A stretch of DNA of 44,921 bases from the NCBI GenBank assembly GCA_003141815.1, contig PLNQ01000063.1:1-44921 (forward strand). Reading direction: 5' to 3'. The notes beneath the pieces were generated by a model. The model did no database searches. It was given only the letters and a program-made list of their open reading frames with translations, and was not told where the DNA came from. This document shows positions 11,976 through 30,469 of this stretch, in pieces (the first letter of the stretch is position 1; each line of letters begins with the position of its first letter). The stretch comes from Acidimicrobiaceae bacterium. Its GTDB lineage: Bacteria; Actinomycetota; Acidimicrobiia; Acidimicrobiales; RAAP-2. A program made the position numbers and the translations under genes.

Positions 11976-12336
11976 ACAACTACTTTACTGGGGGCATCGA
12001 GACCCGTGACCCTGAATATCGGTCTCTACTTCCCTCATGTTTCTCCTCATGAGAACGATGAGTAGCCTCAGTTCCTATTTCAGCCCTGGCCGCCTCGGCA
12101 GGAAGAAGAGGGTCTCAAATGGAGGGATGAAGGTGATGGCCTGACGCCGAGGGGGCTTGTATCGCTCTAGCGCCGTTCGAACGTGGGGCCGCGCGATCAG
12201 GCACCGTTTCGCTAGGTGATTTTCTAAAGTGAATGACCGAATACCCATGCACCGGGGCGAAGGTTTAAGTACGACACGTGCCCGTCACTCGCTTCGGTTC
12301 ACGAAAGTATTCATCTCGGGACCGTAGGGTATTGGC

Positions 12337-12435
12337 ATGTACGACCTTACCCAAGTGCAACGTGACGTACATCGCTTGACGGCCAGGATTCTTCAAGTGA
12401 CGACACGCGTGGCCGACCGCGTCGAGCGCGAGTAA
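12337..12435 (+). CDS. hypothetical 32-aa small ORF upstream of the LLM gene
   Basis: MYDLTQVQRDVHRLTARILQVTTRVADRVERE*, ends 3 nt before the next ATG; charged, helix-like composition. Confidence 0.3.
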   Translation: MYDLTQVQRDVHRLTARILQVTTRVADRVERE

Positions 12436-12438
12436 AAG

Positions 12439-13251
12439 ATGCGCCGTGGTCTTTTTCTTCCTCCCTTCGATGGCCTTGCTAATCCCGACCGGCTCGTCGA
12501 ACTAGCCACAAAGGCCGAGTCGTCAGGTTGGGACGGCTTCTTTCTCTGGGACCATCTGCTCTATGCGCCACCGGTGCGCGACATTCTCGACTCCTACGTG
12601 TGTCTTGCAGCCATCGCTGCGGCGACGTCGACGATTCAGTTGGGACCGATGGTGACACCTCTCATCCGGCGCCGCCCCGCCGTCGTCGCGCGCCAGGCAG
12701 TCACCTTGGACCTGCTGTCGCATGGTCGTCTCGTCCTCGGTTTTGGTATCGGCGACGACGGTGGTAAGGGTGAGCTTTCATCTTTCGGCGAGATTACCGA
12801 CGCGCCGTCGCGGGGTCGCGCGTTGAGTGAAGGGCTCGATGTTCTCACGGGCCTTCTCTCGGGTGATGAAGTGCGCCACGTTGGTGAGTTCTACCGTGCC
12901 GACGGCGTGAATTTCCTTCCGGTGGCGGCGCGCCCAACTGGCATACCCATCTGGCTGGCCGCGCGGTGGCCGAATCCGGCGCCAATTCGTCGCGCCGCCA
13001 AGTACCAAGGCGTCGTCGTCATTCAGATGACGAGTCCCGCTGAGGTGAGTTCGTTGAAAGAGCAGCTGGTTCGCGCTGGTGCCGACCTCGGTAATTTTGA
13101 CATTGTGGTACTCGGCGCCGACGGTGACGATCCACGCGTGTGGGCCGACGCGGGCGTGACGTGGCTCCTCACACAACTCGGCCCGTATGAGTTGAAATTT
13201 TCTGAGGCCATCGATCGAGTGGCTGCTGGACCTTCACGGCAACGTCCCTAG
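12439..13251 (+). CDS. LLM class flavin-dependent oxidoreductase
   Basis: 270 aa; 'WDGFFLWDHLLYAPPVRDILDSYVCLAAIAAATSTIQLGPMVTPLIRRRPAVVARQAVTLDLLSHGRLVLGFGIG'. Confidence 0.88.
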   Translation: MRRGLFLPPFDGLANPDRLVELATKAESSGWDGFFLWDHLLYAPPVRDILDSYVCLAAIAAATSTIQLGPMVTPLIRRRPAVVARQAVTLDLLSHGRLVLGFGIGDDGGKGELSSFGEITDAPSRGRALSEGLDVLTGLLSGDEVRHVGEFYRADGVNFLPVAARPTGIPIWLAARWPNPAPIRRAAKYQGVVVIQMTSPAEVSSLKEQLVRAGADLGNFDIVVLGADGDDPRVWADAGVTWLLTQLGPYELKFSEAIDRVAAGPSRQRP

Positions 13252-13434
13252 TTCGACCATGTAGGGAGTGTGAACGGTAATCGCACAACTTCTTCGACAC
13301 GCCGCACATGCCGTGGAGCCGATCGGGCACGCTGACGCTTTGGCCACGTCGCGGTGCGCGTCGGCATCGAACGTGCAATAGTGTCCGGAGGTTTTGAACT
13401 TGACGTGAACAGCAGCGCTCGCAGATTTTGGCAT
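13234..13434 (-). CDS. hypothetical small Cys-rich protein
   Basis: From ATG (complement of 13432-13434): MPKSASAAVHVKFKTSGHYCTFDADAHRDVAKASACPIGSTACAACRRSCAITVHTPYMVELGTLP*; contains CxxC and clustered Cys/His. Start taken downstream of the listed ORF start. Confidence 0.3.
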   Translation of the reverse strand: MPKSASAAVHVKFKTSGHYCTFDADAHRDVAKASACPIGSTACAACRRSCAITVHTPYMVELGTLP

Positions 13435-13450
13435 CGGGGGCAGTGCGGTC

Positions 13451-15012
13451 ATAATCGTTGAGCCCGCGAATAGGGCACCCGAGAAGGGCCTAAGACCGGC
13501 GCACTGGGCCTTATTTCCAGCGTCGTCATCGCCGTTGCCTCGACGGCTCCCGCGTACAGCATGGCGGCGACGCTCGGCTTTGTCGTCGTGGCGATCGGCC
13601 TTCAGGCGCCCGTCGTCACGATCCTCGCCTTCTTCCCGATGTGGTTCATCTCCATTGCCTTCCAACAGATGAACAAGGCCGACCCCGACTGCGGAGCGTC
13701 ATTCACATGGGCGACGAGAGCGTTCAGTCCGCGCGTGGGCTGGATGGGTGGTTGGGGAGTCATCGCGGCGGACATCATCGTGATGGCGAGCCTCGCCCAG
13801 ATCGCTGGCCAGTACGTGCTCGATCTGTTCAACGCGAACGGCATCGGCAACAACGCCACCAGTCCTTGGGTACTCACCGTCGGCATCGCGTGGATCGTCG
13901 CCATGACGTGGATCTGTTACATCGGCATTGAAATCTCCGCCAACTTCCAAAAGGCCCTGCTCGGCATCGAACTCACGATGTTGACAGTGCTCTCGGTCCG
14001 GGCACTCGTCCGAGTGGGTAACGGCAGCGCTCCGGTTGGCCATCTCGTGCCCGCCGCCTCGTGGTTCGATCCCTTCAAGGTGAAGCACTTCAGTGGCTTC
14101 GTCGTCGGACTCGCGGACATGCTCTTCATCTACTGGGGTTGGGACACGGCACTCAATCTCAACGAGGAGACCGTGGACGCGGAAACCGTGCCCGGGAAGG
14201 CGGGCGTCATCGCGACGTTCATTCTGCTCGGCACCTACACCATGGTGATCCTTGCCGTCGAGTCCTTTGCGGGAATTGGTGCCTCAGGAATTGGGCTGGG
14301 CAACTCCGCCCACACGAACGACGTGCTCTCCATCCTCGGTCCCGCGATCTTCGGACACTCGACGTTGGCGTCCGTGCTCGATCATCTCTTGTTGTTGATG
14401 GTGCTGTCCTCAGCGGCGGCGTCGACCCAGACGACCATCTTGCCGACTGCTCGCACCGCTCCGTCGATGTCGGTACACAAGGCAATTCCACAAGTGCTCG
14501 CGAAGATGCATAAGCGCTTTCTCACGCCCACCGTTTCGACAGTGACCTTCGGGTTAGTGTCGATCGCTCTCTACGCGGTGATGAACCACCTCTCCGCCGG
14601 ACACGTGATCGCCGACTTCGTGTCCGCTCTCGGGGTGATGATCGCGCTCTACTACGGACTGACGGGTTGGTCGTGCGTGTGGTACTACCGTAAGACGTTG
14701 ACCGCGAGCGTTCACAACTTCTTTATCCAAGGCGTCTTGCCGTTGATCGGCGCCGTCATCTTGTACTTCATCCTCGGATGGTCCTTCTGGTACTACTGGA
14801 ACCCGACGAACAGTTACACCCACTTGGGCATCTTCCATCATCAGTTCGGTGGGACGTTCATCCTCAACGTCGGAGCGCTCTTGCTTGGCGTGATTCTCAT
14901 GATCACGATGAATGCCGTCCGGCCAGCCTTCTTTCGAGGCGAGACGCTCAATCGTGAATCGCCGACCCTCGTCACCGAGGACTTTGTCACGAAGAGTGAA
15001 CAGGCGCATTAG
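13451..15012 (+). CDS. APC family amino acid permease, apparently frameshifted near the 5' end (ORF track begins at internal ATG 13561)
   Basis: In-frame residues before 13561 read 'KTGALGLISSVVIAVASTAPAYS' and continue the family N-terminus; the preceding 'EPANRAPEKGL' is in a different frame. Downstream 'YWGWDTALNLNEETVDAETVPGKAGV' is intact. Confidence 0.75.
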
Positions 15013-15066
15013 GTTGAGGCGCCATCGTACGTTCGCTCTTCATTCCTCGAAAGGAGGCGTAGCCTC

Positions 15067-15507
15067 ATGACCAACACTTCTTCACCTCCGCGCGTGGTCG
15101 TCGGTGTCGACGGCTCGGCGCCGGCCGCCAACGCGCTCGAGTTCGCCATCGAAGAGGCTCGCCTTCGAAAGGCCACCCTGCACGTCACGTACGCGTACAC
15201 CGTCATGGCGTCACCGGTGACGGGGTCTACGGGCAAGGACTACTACGAACAAGTCGAGGCGGAAGCGAAAGAGTTTCTCCAAGGAATCGTGGCGACGGCC
15301 CCCTCGACGGAGGGCCTCGAGGTCGAATGCTTGGGCGTCCCGGGCAACCCGTCCGAGGTGCTCATTGAGGCCCGTCGTGGGGCCACCTTGTTAGTCGTCG
15401 GTTCGAGGGGACAAGGTGGATTCTTGGGACTCTTGATGGGTTCGGTGTCGACCCAGTGCGTGCACCACTCGCACTGTCCGGTGCTCGTCGTTCGTGAAGG
15501 TCACTGA
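15067..15507 (+). CDS. universal stress protein (UspA family)
   Basis: 'RVVVGVDGSAPAANALEFAIEEARLR', 'GNPSEVLIEARRGATLLVVGSRGQGGFLGLLMGSVSTQCVHHSHCPVLVVR'. Confidence 0.93.
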   Translation: MTNTSSPPRVVVGVDGSAPAANALEFAIEEARLRKATLHVTYAYTVMASPVTGSTGKDYYEQVEAEAKEFLQGIVATAPSTEGLEVECLGVPGNPSEVLIEARRGATLLVVGSRGQGGFLGLLMGSVSTQCVHHSHCPVLVVREGH

Positions 15508-15605
15508 GCGCGGCGTCGACTGCGCGAATCCTCGGCCGCGAAGATGCTCTCGTGCACGGATGCTGCCTGGAGAGCACCGTCGGTCGGCTTGTAAGGTGAC
15601 CACTA

Positions 15606-16007
15606 ATGGCCCCCATGGATGAATCGTACGACTTGAGCTTGGCGGCGGCGGCGTTGCGATCGAACAGTGCCGACGTCCACGCGCTCCTAAAGGCGCTCTG
15701 CAGCGAGTTGTCGGACACTCTGGGTGACCGACTGCGCACGCAACGCGGGGGTGGGCGACGGCACAAGTCCGACGAAATATCATCGGTGAAGATCGCCATG
15801 GCGAACGATCAGTTCGAAGCGGTCGTCGACGGAGGTGACCTTCTCTGCACGGTGGGACACGTATCCGGTGGTATTCGCATTCGTAACGAAACCGTCGACA
15901 TGGACCAGTGGATCACGCGACTGCTCCAAGCGTTACAGGCCGAGGCGGCCCACAGCGACGCGGCCCGCCTCGCTCTCGAAAACATTGTCATCGGAGGACA
16001 TCAGTGA
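15606..16007 (+). CDS. hypothetical protein, first gene of the YbjQ-like operon
   Basis: 133 aa ORF; its stop overlaps the next start (GTGA at 16004-16007). No family recognised. Confidence 0.6.
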   Translation: MAPMDESYDLSLAAAALRSNSADVHALLKALCSELSDTLGDRLRTQRGGGRRHKSDEISSVKIAMANDQFEAVVDGGDLLCTVGHVSGGIRIRNETVDMDQWITRLLQALQAEAAHSDAARLALENIVIGGHQ

Positions 16008-16801
16008 GCGACGTAACGAACGATCTACCCGAAGCGACGGGACGGCGACTCGAAGAGTTGGAGAAAGGACTCTTCACTTCCGATCTCTCGGTGAACGAAT
16101 TTCTTCTGATCAAGGAAGTGGGTTTTCACCCGGTGGGCTTCGTCATGGGTTCGTCGATCTATCACACGGGTATCCAGACCCGTAAGTGGGGACAGAGCCT
16201 CGAACTGACGAAACTCACTGAGGCCATGTACAACGCCCGCGAGCTCGCCATGACGCGCATGGAAGAAGAAGCCAGCGAACTCGGCGCGGACGGCGTCGTG
16301 GGCGTTCGTCTCGACGTCAACTACTACGAGTGGGGTAAGGACGCGGCGGAGTTCATCGCCGTCGGTACCGCCGTCAAGGCCGAGGACGGCGTCTCACGAC
16401 TTAACCAACTCGGCAAACCATTTACCTCGGATCTGTCGGGACAGGACTTCTGGACCCTCTTGCAAACGGGCTACTTCCCGCAGGGCCTCGTGATGGGTAC
16501 CTGCGTGTACCACATTGCCCACCGCGGCCTCGGCCAGACGCTCGGTACAACGGGTCAGAACGTGGAGTTGCCGAACTTCACCCAGGCACTTTACGAGGCG
16601 CGCGAACTGGCGATGACGCGGATGCAGGATGAAGCGACGCAACTCGGCGCCACGGGCATCGTTGGCGTGCGACTCGAAGAGAAGTCGCACCAGTGGGGCT
16701 CGCACACCATAGAGTTCCTCTCGCTCGGCACCGCAGTCTTGAAGACCTCGAACGAGGTCACGCTGGCCAAGCCCACGACGATCATCACACTCGACAACTA
16801 A
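16004..16801 (+). CDS. tandem two-domain YbjQ/UPF0145-like (putative heavy-metal-binding family) protein
   Basis: GTG start at 16004; two internal copies, 'FTSDLSVNEFLLIKEVGFHPVGFVMG..ARELAMTRMEEEASELGADGVVGVRL..EFIAVGTAVK' and 'FTSDLSGQDFWTLLQTGYFPQGLVMG..ARELAMTRMQDEATQLGATGIVGVRL..EFLSLGTAVL'. Confidence 0.75.
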   Translation: MSDVTNDLPEATGRRLEELEKGLFTSDLSVNEFLLIKEVGFHPVGFVMGSSIYHTGIQTRKWGQSLELTKLTEAMYNARELAMTRMEEEASELGADGVVGVRLDVNYYEWGKDAAEFIAVGTAVKAEDGVSRLNQLGKPFTSDLSGQDFWTLLQTGYFPQGLVMGTCVYHIAHRGLGQTLGTTGQNVELPNFTQALYEARELAMTRMQDEATQLGATGIVGVRLEEKSHQWGSHTIEFLSLGTAVLKTSNEVTLAKPTTIITLDN

Positions 16802-17697
16802 TGAGCGATCTGCCCGAGGCGGCCGAGCGACGACTGTCCGGAGGCGCCTTCTCCTCCGGGCTCAGCGTGTCGGACTTTGGCGCGTGTCTCGAGATGGGCC
16901 TCGAACCCGTGGGCCTGGTGCAGGGGTTTTGCGCCATGCACCAAGGCGCGTACGCCATGGGCGGGGCTCTGTCGAGAGGCCTCTCGCCGTACGGGGGTTC
17001 GGGCAGTGGCTACGTGCAGAACTACCAGTGTCCCCACGGCATGATCTCCAACGAACATCGCTCGTGGGGCCAGAACTACGAGCAGACCTGGGTACAGGAC
17101 GCCTGGAACCAAGGTTTCACCAGCGCGTACCACCGCATGCTCGAAGAAGCGACGACGCTCGGTGCCCACGGCGTCGTCGGGGTCATCGACACCCAGACGC
17201 CCCTCGGCGACATGGGCGTCATTGAGTTCCACGTACGAGGAACCGCGGTCAAGGTGCTCGACATGTCGGTACCCACCTCGAGTCCGTGGAACACGTTCTT
17301 GGCCGGTCAGCGACTCGCGAAGGTCTTCGAAGCCGGCTACGTGCCGGTATCGGTCGTCGCGGCGGTCTCGTCAGTGCGGGTGTGGGCCTACTGCGTGACC
17401 GAGTACCTGATGGAGGGTTTCGCCGGATCGATGTGGACCACGGCCTCGAACTCCTCGAACGCCGTCGAGATTGAGCAGATCGTCACCGCGCAGACGTGGT
17501 CGCGCCAAAGAGTGCGCGCATCAGCTCGCGCGCAATTGCAAGGCGACGCCCTACACGGGGCCGACTTACGTCTGGTGGAGCGAGAGTTCGAAAAGGGTGA
17601 CCTCGAGATTCAGGCCGTACTGCGCGGCAATCGGATTCGTCGATTCAAGGACTTCGACCCACTGCCCGTTCCCCAACCGACGGTTCGTCTCTCGTGA
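16801..17697 (+). CDS. YbjQ/UPF0145-like protein, second paralog (one clear and one degenerate domain)
   Basis: ATG at 16801 overlaps the upstream TAA (TAATG); 'FSSGLSVSDFGACLEMGLEPVGLVQG..YHRMLEEATTLGAHGVVGVI..IEFHVRGTAVKVL'. Confidence 0.7.
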   Translation: MSDLPEAAERRLSGGAFSSGLSVSDFGACLEMGLEPVGLVQGFCAMHQGAYAMGGALSRGLSPYGGSGSGYVQNYQCPHGMISNEHRSWGQNYEQTWVQDAWNQGFTSAYHRMLEEATTLGAHGVVGVIDTQTPLGDMGVIEFHVRGTAVKVLDMSVPTSSPWNTFLAGQRLAKVFEAGYVPVSVVAAVSSVRVWAYCVTEYLMEGFAGSMWTTASNSSNAVEIEQIVTAQTWSRQRVRASARAQLQGDALHGADLRLVEREFEKGDLEIQAVLRGNRIRRFKDFDPLPVPQPTVRLS

Positions 17698-18536
17698 CGA
17701 ACCCGGACGAGGCCAAGAGTCCGATCGACGCGAAGGCGGAAGTTCGTCGAGCAGTGGCGTCGCTCGAAGGGAAGGCGCCGAACGTGGAATCGACGACGTC
17801 GGATCTCTCGATCGACGAGGAACTCAACCTTCACTCGATTGGTTGGGAGCCCGTCGAACTCGTGAGCGGCGTGTCGCTCTTTTCGACGCCCGTCGGCCTG
17901 TGGAACTGGGGCGAGGGGGAGATCGTGTCTGCGTCGCAGGCGCACGCGCAAGCCTTCAAGTACGCCATCGGACGAATCCATAAGGAAGCCGCCGACGCGG
18001 GCGGCCACGGTGTCGTGGGTGTGCACATCGAACGCCGCGTGTACTCGACGCACATCGAAGTCTCGCTGCTCGGCACGGCCATACGTCCGGTGGGCGCTAA
18101 AAGCATTGAGGCGAGCAACGTCTTTGTCTCGGACCTTTCGGCGCGCGACTTCACGCTGTTGATGGTTGCGGGTTGGGAACCACTCGGTCTCGCGACGGGC
18201 GCCAGCTTCGTCTACGCCCCACGAAGGACGATGGGTACGGTGCTACAACAACAGTCCCAGAACGTGGAACTGAAGAACTACACCGAAGCGATGTACTCTT
18301 CACGAGAATCGGCCATGGAACGAATGCAACAGGGCGCCCTCGAACTCAAGGGCACTGGCGTGGTGGGGGTCAAAGTGGTCGAAGGTCCAATGACGTTTGC
18401 CACGCACGCGGTGGGCTTCGCCGCATGGGGAACCGTCGTACGTCTCGTGAAGGACTCCCATCACTTCGTGCGACCCACGATGGTGGTGTCGCTCAATGAT
18501 CTCGGTGTCGCCTTCAACGCTCAGTCACTGCACTGA
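17694..18536 (+). CDS. tandem two-domain YbjQ/UPF0145-like protein, third paralog
   Basis: GTG start at 17694 overlaps the upstream TGA; 'TSDLSIDEELNLHSIGWEPVELVSG..EAADAGGHGVVGVHI..EVSLLGTAI' and 'FVSDLSARDFTLLMVAGWEPLGLATG..RMQQGALELKGTGVVGVKV..GFAAWGTVVRLV'. Confidence 0.75.
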   Translation: MTNPDEAKSPIDAKAEVRRAVASLEGKAPNVESTTSDLSIDEELNLHSIGWEPVELVSGVSLFSTPVGLWNWGEGEIVSASQAHAQAFKYAIGRIHKEAADAGGHGVVGVHIERRVYSTHIEVSLLGTAIRPVGAKSIEASNVFVSDLSARDFTLLMVAGWEPLGLATGASFVYAPRRTMGTVLQQQSQNVELKNYTEAMYSSRESAMERMQQGALELKGTGVVGVKVVEGPMTFATHAVGFAAWGTVVRLVKDSHHFVRPTMVVSLNDLGVAFNAQSLH

Positions 18537-18608
18537 CGAGACCAACGATTGCTTGACTCCGAGCCAACATCATCATCATCTTCGGGGCTGGGCCCTATCG
18601 TTCATACT

Positions 18609-18914
18609 GTGAAACTTGACGTTTATCGGAGTTGCACGCGCCAAGAGAAGCGCGAAGTTCTCGAGACGTTCTGGCGCGCCAACGTGCACGCGTCAGCCCG
18701 GATTCACGAGGCGGCGCTGCAGTACGGCCCGTTCGCCGTCATCTCGCTCGCCGCGGTGGTCCTGGAGCTGGCCCTCGTGATCTTCGTCTCGATTCATCGT
18801 GCTCCCGTGGTGGGTTGGCTCGCCATCGTTTTCGAAGCCGTTGTTCTGCTCTCTTTGTGGTGGTCCCTCGTTCGATTCCGGGCCGTAAGAAGTCACTCGA
18901 TCGAATCGACGTAG
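18609..18914 (+). CDS. hypothetical small membrane protein (two predicted TM segments)
   Basis: GTG start at 18609; hydrophobic 'FAVISLAAVVLELALVIFVSIH' and 'VVGWLAIVFEAVVLLSLWWSLV'. Confidence 0.5.
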   Translation: MKLDVYRSCTRQEKREVLETFWRANVHASARIHEAALQYGPFAVISLAAVVLELALVIFVSIHRAPVVGWLAIVFEAVVLLSLWWSLVRFRAVRSHSIEST

Positions 18915-30085: not shown

Positions 30086-30469
30086 TTAGGAGGGGTTACT
30101 CAGCGTGACCGCCGTGCCGTAGGCGACGATCTCCGTGAGGGACTGTCCGACCTCTGAGGAATCGAATCGGAACGACACGATTCCCTGGGCGCCGAGGAGT
30201 TGGGCATTTTCGATCATGCGGTCGAGGGCGTGTCGGCGACTGTCTTCGACCAACCTGGTGTACTGCTTGACCTCGCCACCAGCGAGTGCCTTAAAGCCTG
30301 CCGTGATCCCTTTGGCCATACCCATGGAGCGTACGACGACGCCGAACACCATCCCCAGGCTCTTCTCGATCTGACGATCAGGAAACTGAAGTGCCGTCGT
30401 TATTGGAAACTGCGAACCGCCAGGCTCGCCGTAGCGTGGTTGACTATCGGACATTCGTGTCACTCTCAT
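30086..30469 (-). CDS. YbjQ/UPF0145 family (putative heavy-metal-binding) protein, single domain
   Basis: 'ITTALQFPDRQIEKSLGMVFGVVVRSMGMAKGITAGFKALAGGEVKQYTRLVEDSRRHALDRMIENAQLLGAQGIVSFRFDSS..EIVAYGTAVTL'. Start may be the internal Met at 30454. Confidence 0.88.
   Translation of the reverse strand: MRVTRMSDSQPRYGEPGGSQFPITTALQFPDRQIEKSLGMVFGVVVRSMGMAKGITAGFKALAGGEVKQYTRLVEDSRRHALDRMIENAQLLGAQGIVSFRFDSSEVGQSLTEIVAYGTAVTLSNPS

Follow-up and report, generated by a model that had tools for sequence, protein, structure and literature searches.

Organization of the four-gene block

The window analyzed here is a stretch of 44,921 nucleotides from an Acidimicrobiaceae bacterium (contig PLNQ01000063.1 of assembly GCA_003141815.1), whose genome, G000 in our set, is about 90% complete. 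It contains a block of four genes that we call A, B, C, and D in their order, and we use X for a diverged tandem-YbjQ gene that occurs in distant loci (Table 1). Neighboring genes overlap at every junction, by GTGA at A/B and at C/D and by TAATG at B/C; these overlaps and the ORF coordinates agree exactly with the initial annotation.

Table 1. Genes, predicted modules, and promoter-like site of the four-gene block, in window coordinates.
Feature	Position	Strand	Description
-10-like hexamer TAAGGT	15592..15597	+	End 8 nt 5' of the A start codon; putative leaderless-type promoter
Gene A	15606..16007	+	133 aa, small partner; AlphaFold fold; likely remote relative of DUF5073/Rv1761c
Gene B	16004..16801	+	265 aa, conserved tandem-YbjQ core; relative of mycobacterial Rv1762c
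YbjQ module B1	16067..16393	+	Approx. residues 22-130; invariant His54, Glu67
YbjQ module B2	16394..16744	+	Approx. residues 131-247; invariant Cys167, His170, Glu188
Gene C	16801..17697	+	298 aa, diverged tandem-YbjQ paralogue; PF01906 match
YbjQ module C1	16843..17271	+	Inserted loop with invariant Cys77, His79, His86
YbjQ module C2	17272..17643	+	Sequence degenerate; YbjQ secondary-structure order in AlphaFold model
Gene D	17694..18536	+	280 aa, diverged tandem-YbjQ paralogue; PF01906 match
YbjQ module D1	17787..18101	+	Approx. residues 32-136
YbjQ module D2	18102..18446	+	Approx. residues 137-251

Just 3' of D there is a 121-aa hydrophobic ORF (18549-18914, plus strand) for which no Pfam family was found. 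This ORF is kept in G569, a genome that lacks the module, so it belongs to the flank. The same window also has a single-domain YbjQ gene 12 kb from the module (30101-30403, minus strand; PF01906 at 4e-31), so the tandem genes do not replace the ordinary YbjQ.

Conservation in close relatives

We compared the block with 80 related loci from a genome collection, nearly all of them in Acidimicrobiaceae-type metagenome assemblies. The order A-B-C-D is found in 80/80 of these closest relatives where the contig allows, all six incomplete loci lying at the end of a contig. The initial annotation would have been refuted if the four genes never co-occurred in related genomes, and they do co-occur. The overlaps are also mostly the same, with -4 nt between A and B in 70/78 relatives, -1 nt between B and C in 62/79, and -4 nt between C and D in 66/78. 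Given that the same order and the same overlaps recur, the arrangement is not due to chance. The flanks, on the other hand, are almost never shared: among the 80 loci, the genes around the block in the window are common as a block only to its nearest relative, L007, and no constant neighbor was found, the most frequent neighbor family occurring in 9 of about 80 loci. We therefore consider the four genes to be an autonomous module. Two genes recur beside it as minority patterns. An Hsp20-like gene lies there in five loci, and in seven loci (L054, L055, L062, L068, L080, L083, and L085) a PspA/IM30 gene, checked with Pfam on the L054 copy, is directly upstream of A and is perhaps in the same transcript.

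In 45 of 72 relatives, compared to 1.5 expected by shuffling, the distance from the end of a TANNNT motif to the start of A is 5-9 nt, and the TAAGGT-like site of the window fits a leaderless promoter belonging to the operon itself. With this promoter-like site at A and the flanks unshared, the operon would begin at A and would not include the Usp gene upstream. That gene had been taken as a hint of a stress context, which we rejected because Usp adjoins the module only in the window and L007 and because the operon has its own promoter-like site.

The four genes are not conserved to the same degree. Mean column identity is 83% for B, compared to 53% for A, 46% for C, and 53% for D, and omega (dN/dS) is 0.02-0.05 for B and 0.085-0.18 for A, C, and D. 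Judged by these ratios, purifying selection on B is about 2.5-7 times stronger than on the other three. We found no earlier description of this module or of its conserved linkage in the literature searched.

YbjQ modules of B, C, and D

All three larger proteins pass the gathering score of PF01906 (YbjQ_1) in Pfam, which is 23 bits: B at 90.5 bits (1.2e-25, two stretches), D at 52.4 bits (9.1e-14, two stretches), and C at 24.9 bits (3.2e-5, one stretch), and the match is present in 75/75 C homologues. In a genome-wide PF01906 profile search, five of the six modules score individually, along with the one single-domain YbjQ in the window, and the sixth module (C, residues ~158-281) gave no match by the PF01906 HMM. 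In an AlphaFold model of C, made from an alignment of 75 C homologues (pLDDT 87), both halves have the same order of helix-strand-long helix-strand-strand, and the best Foldseek matches of the whole model in the PDB are the YbjQ structures 1y2i and 1vr4 (prob 1.00). Based on the model, C2 is a genuine YbjQ module despite its degeneracy. The YbjQ relationship proposed in the initial annotation is thus borne out, including for the module that had been called degenerate, and the module signatures it described hold in general, except that the N-module of D opens with STTSDLS rather than FxSDLS and D2 closes with GTVV.

PF01906 proteins usually consist of a single domain of ~100 aa, and B, C, and D, with two modules each, depart from this architecture. 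The window proteins have in common with YbjQ/UPF0145/DUF74 (PF01906; 1y2i, 1vr4, 2gtc) the fold, the sequence family, and the ending ExA..LGAxGVVGV...EF...GTAV. They differ in carrying an extra N-terminal TSDLS segment and in having three paralogous two-module chains, whereas YbjQ proteins of known structure are single-domain homopentamers, one of which has subunits in differing conformations (PMC4092069, PMC2954204). Each of the entries 1y2i and 1vr4 contains five chains. Given that known YbjQ rings are pentamers, six modules do not simply fit one ring, and we did not adopt a model in which the six modules make a single ring. The YbjQ family is widespread (10/14 control genomes), and no established function for it was found in the literature searched. 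A role for YbjQ as a ThiE analogue was set aside, since it presumably comes from a confusion of YbjQ with YjbQ (COG0432). The ThiE claim itself is made in PMC7084401.

In a module tree of 64 modules plus 21 single-domain YbjQs, the single-domain proteins separate from the tandem modules at UFBoot 100, the N-modules of the tandem proteins (B, C, D, and X) group together in a clade (UFBoot 66), and so do 26/32 of the C-modules (UFBoot 88). These clades favor, with moderate support, one two-module ancestor of B, C, and D followed by gene duplication. Serial duplication of such an ancestor had been suggested before, and the tree agrees with it apart from the D2 modules, which fall outside the C-module clade. 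Orthology of C and X is weakly supported: C2 and X2 group at UFBoot 78, but the N-modules disagree.

Invariant residues separate B from its paralogues. Across 38 B proteins, five residues never vary: His54, Glu67, Cys167, His170, and Glu188. His54 and His170 correspond in position between the two modules, and only B retains an invariant His/Glu pair in each of them; most C, D, and X proteins have lost the invariant His and Cys of B. At its GxSxYH site, B has His where known YbjQs usually have Arg or another residue. C has its own invariant Cys77, His79, and His86 in an insertion. We regard the invariant His/Glu residues of B, together with Cys167, as a candidate metal or small-ligand site and the three residues of C as a candidate ligand site.

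It is possible, though in our judgment rather doubtful, that the whole module serves metal homeostasis, with the residues of B and the Cys-x-His-x6-His loop of C buffering or delivering metal and no defined large particle being formed. Besides the invariant residues themselves, the family name "putative heavy-metal-binding" agrees with this, as does the description of many carriers in database records as MAGs of the peat, permafrost, or mine type. However, in the literature searched we found no metal binding by any YbjQ protein, no metal transporter or regulator was seen recurring beside the module in about 80 loci, and D and X are mostly without the candidate residues.

Gene A and the mycobacterial pair Rv1762c-Rv1761c

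AlphaFold predicts a compact alpha/beta fold for A (alpha-alpha-five strands-alpha-alpha), and a fold search against the PDB and viral models returned nothing meaningful, the top PDB match being STING with TM about 0.2 and rmsd 13-17 A. The A protein of the window has no match to DUF5073 (PF16817) at the Pfam gathering score of 27 bits, while 4/75 A homologues match it weakly (best E 5e-4) and the mycobacterial relatives of A match at 222 bits. In the mycobacterial loci L129 and L130, B is followed directly by a DUF5073 gene (E 1e-66), which in L130 matches Rv1761c (PDB 2k3m) at 1.8e-51, and the stop of B and the start of this gene meet in a short overlap or abut. Compared by hhalign with the mycobacterial DUF5073 set, the broad A set gave 92.9% probability (E 3.8e-7), versus 1.9% for the close A set alone. 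Homology of A to DUF5073/Rv1761c is therefore likely, but remote, and A adjoins a tandem-YbjQ gene as its mycobacterial counterparts do. A had been described as an orphan, a label that no longer applies given this resemblance and the tie of its family to tandem-YbjQ genes.

Close mycobacterial B proteins match the B profile at E 1e-78 to 1e-82. Rv1762c of Mycobacterium tuberculosis, with two YbjQ-like domains, has the length and two-module layout of B and adjoins a relative of A, and the mycobacterial B-A pair is most probably Rv1762c-Rv1761c. In contrast to the A-B order of the window, the mycobacterial loci read here have the order B-A without an adjacent C, D, or X. In L129 and L130 we also noted a gene near the pair that by eye resembles wax ester synthase/diacylglycerol acyltransferase.

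In micelles, Rv1761c is an all-helical membrane protein with a kinked transmembrane helix and four further helices (PMC2396618, PMC6269851), which clashes with the alpha/beta model of A. Either the homology of A to DUF5073 is wrong or the micelle structure of Rv1761c is non-native.

The membrane character of Rv1761c raises a second explanation, namely a membrane-associated scaffold in which A anchors a tandem-YbjQ assembly at the inner membrane, with eukaryotic C2CD5 as a parallel. We think this unlikely. Micelles were used to study Rv1761c, which had indeed been expressed in the membrane fraction, and PspA/IM30 precedes A in the seven relatives mentioned above, but PspA is not beside the module in most loci, the predicted fold of A is compact and includes five strands, and Rv1762c came from a clarified, filtered lysate (PMC8635971). 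C2CD5, a C2-domain protein, also has a YbjQ-like domain inside a larger protein (PF23025, YbjQ_2), but the match to this family is weak and occurs in 5/75 C proteins only (best E 0.03).

Distant relatives and accessory status

In a phylum sample of 298 genomes, strong full-length matches were obtained in ten genomes with the B profile and in seven with the A profile. A broader A profile matched 8/398 genomes, all of which have tandem-YbjQ genes, and although some weak A assignments rest on iterated profiles, adjacency supports these assignments independently. A adjoins B in most distant loci, in the reduced arrangements A-X-B, X-B-A, A-B, and B-A, sometimes with A on the other strand; in G081, A and the tandem-YbjQ gene are about 40 kb apart. 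Streptomyces plasmids have X-B-A. By profile matches and gene position, A is tied to B across Actinomycetota. We also noted broken A-like and B-like genes that adjoin on a plasmid of the cyanobacterium Aulosira laxa (L191, 6547-7378), so the pair reaches beyond Actinomycetota.

Within the genus of the window, B is present in 16/41 genomes (9/26 among the better assemblies), which indicates that the module is dispensable. In G569, homology to the window breaks off after 11982 and is found again from 18589. Between these points, 840 bp replaces 6.6 kb that in the window (11983-18588) contains genes for an LLM-type oxidoreductase and a permease along with Usp and A-D. We recognised no mobility gene at either edge of this stretch. 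On this distribution, we class the four-gene module as accessory.

An accessory anti-phage or conflict cassette would explain the patchy presence within the genus, the replaced stretch, the changing flanks, and the plasmid copies. We nevertheless give this very little credence, and a phage or defence origin has no support: there is no meaningful PADLOC match, the module has no nuclease, protease, or toxin-like effector, it was not found in the phages searched, and B evolves extremely slowly.

A predicted multi-subunit assembly

Rv1762c is consistently found in encapsulin nanocompartment preparations of M. tuberculosis, which are sedimented 25-nm particles (eLife 2021, PMC8635971). B might accordingly be loaded into encapsulin shells or decorate them, but this is highly improbable as an account of the module, since encapsulin was found in 10/27 carriers and not in the other 17, among them the window genome (about 90% complete) and the four further carriers from its order that were tested. 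With encapsulin missing from so many carriers, the module does not need it, and we rejected dependence on encapsulin. For the window genome and the four other carriers, a large particle of the module's own is a simpler reading than cargo. The co-sedimentation of Rv1762c could be cargo loading or contamination, and PMC8635971 allows either.

Overall, we lean, with no great confidence, toward the explanation that the four genes form an accessory unit, complete in itself, whose products assemble into one large, dedicated hetero-oligomer in which B is the core, C and D are derived subunits, and A is a small partner. In such an assembly, the near-invariant tandem-YbjQ protein B would oligomerise through the YbjQ fold. 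C and D, as paralogues of B that kept the fold and lost B's conserved ligand-like residues, would be subunits, structural or regulatory, that are either integrated into the B assembly or attached to it, and A would be a small dedicated partner of the DUF5073/Rv1761c type, such as a cap, adaptor, or assembly factor. The gene overlaps would keep the four products translated together. We infer that A, B, C, and D may be in one complex and that this complex may be very large; C and D could also act separately from B. As for the cellular role, our tentative best guess is that the module handles a ligand or metal in the cytoplasm.

A more speculative form of this explanation, which we consider a long shot, is that the module builds a megadalton particle in which the two linked, pentamer-forming modules of each tandem-YbjQ chain could connect pentamers into a closed cage, C, D, and A set its composition, cap, or contents, and Rv1762c would be the minimal form. 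If true, this would be a previously undescribed type of bacterial particle. The module also suggests an alternative to encapsulin cargo for the occurrence of Rv1762c in nanocompartment preparations, and through it Rv1761c and Rv1762c, two unexplained proteins of the tuberculosis bacterium, become linked as a conserved pair. For the YbjQ family as a whole, the module supplies a constant partner gene (A), a conserved core in which candidate residues are defined, and derived paralogues, which makes YbjQ function testable by co-purification.
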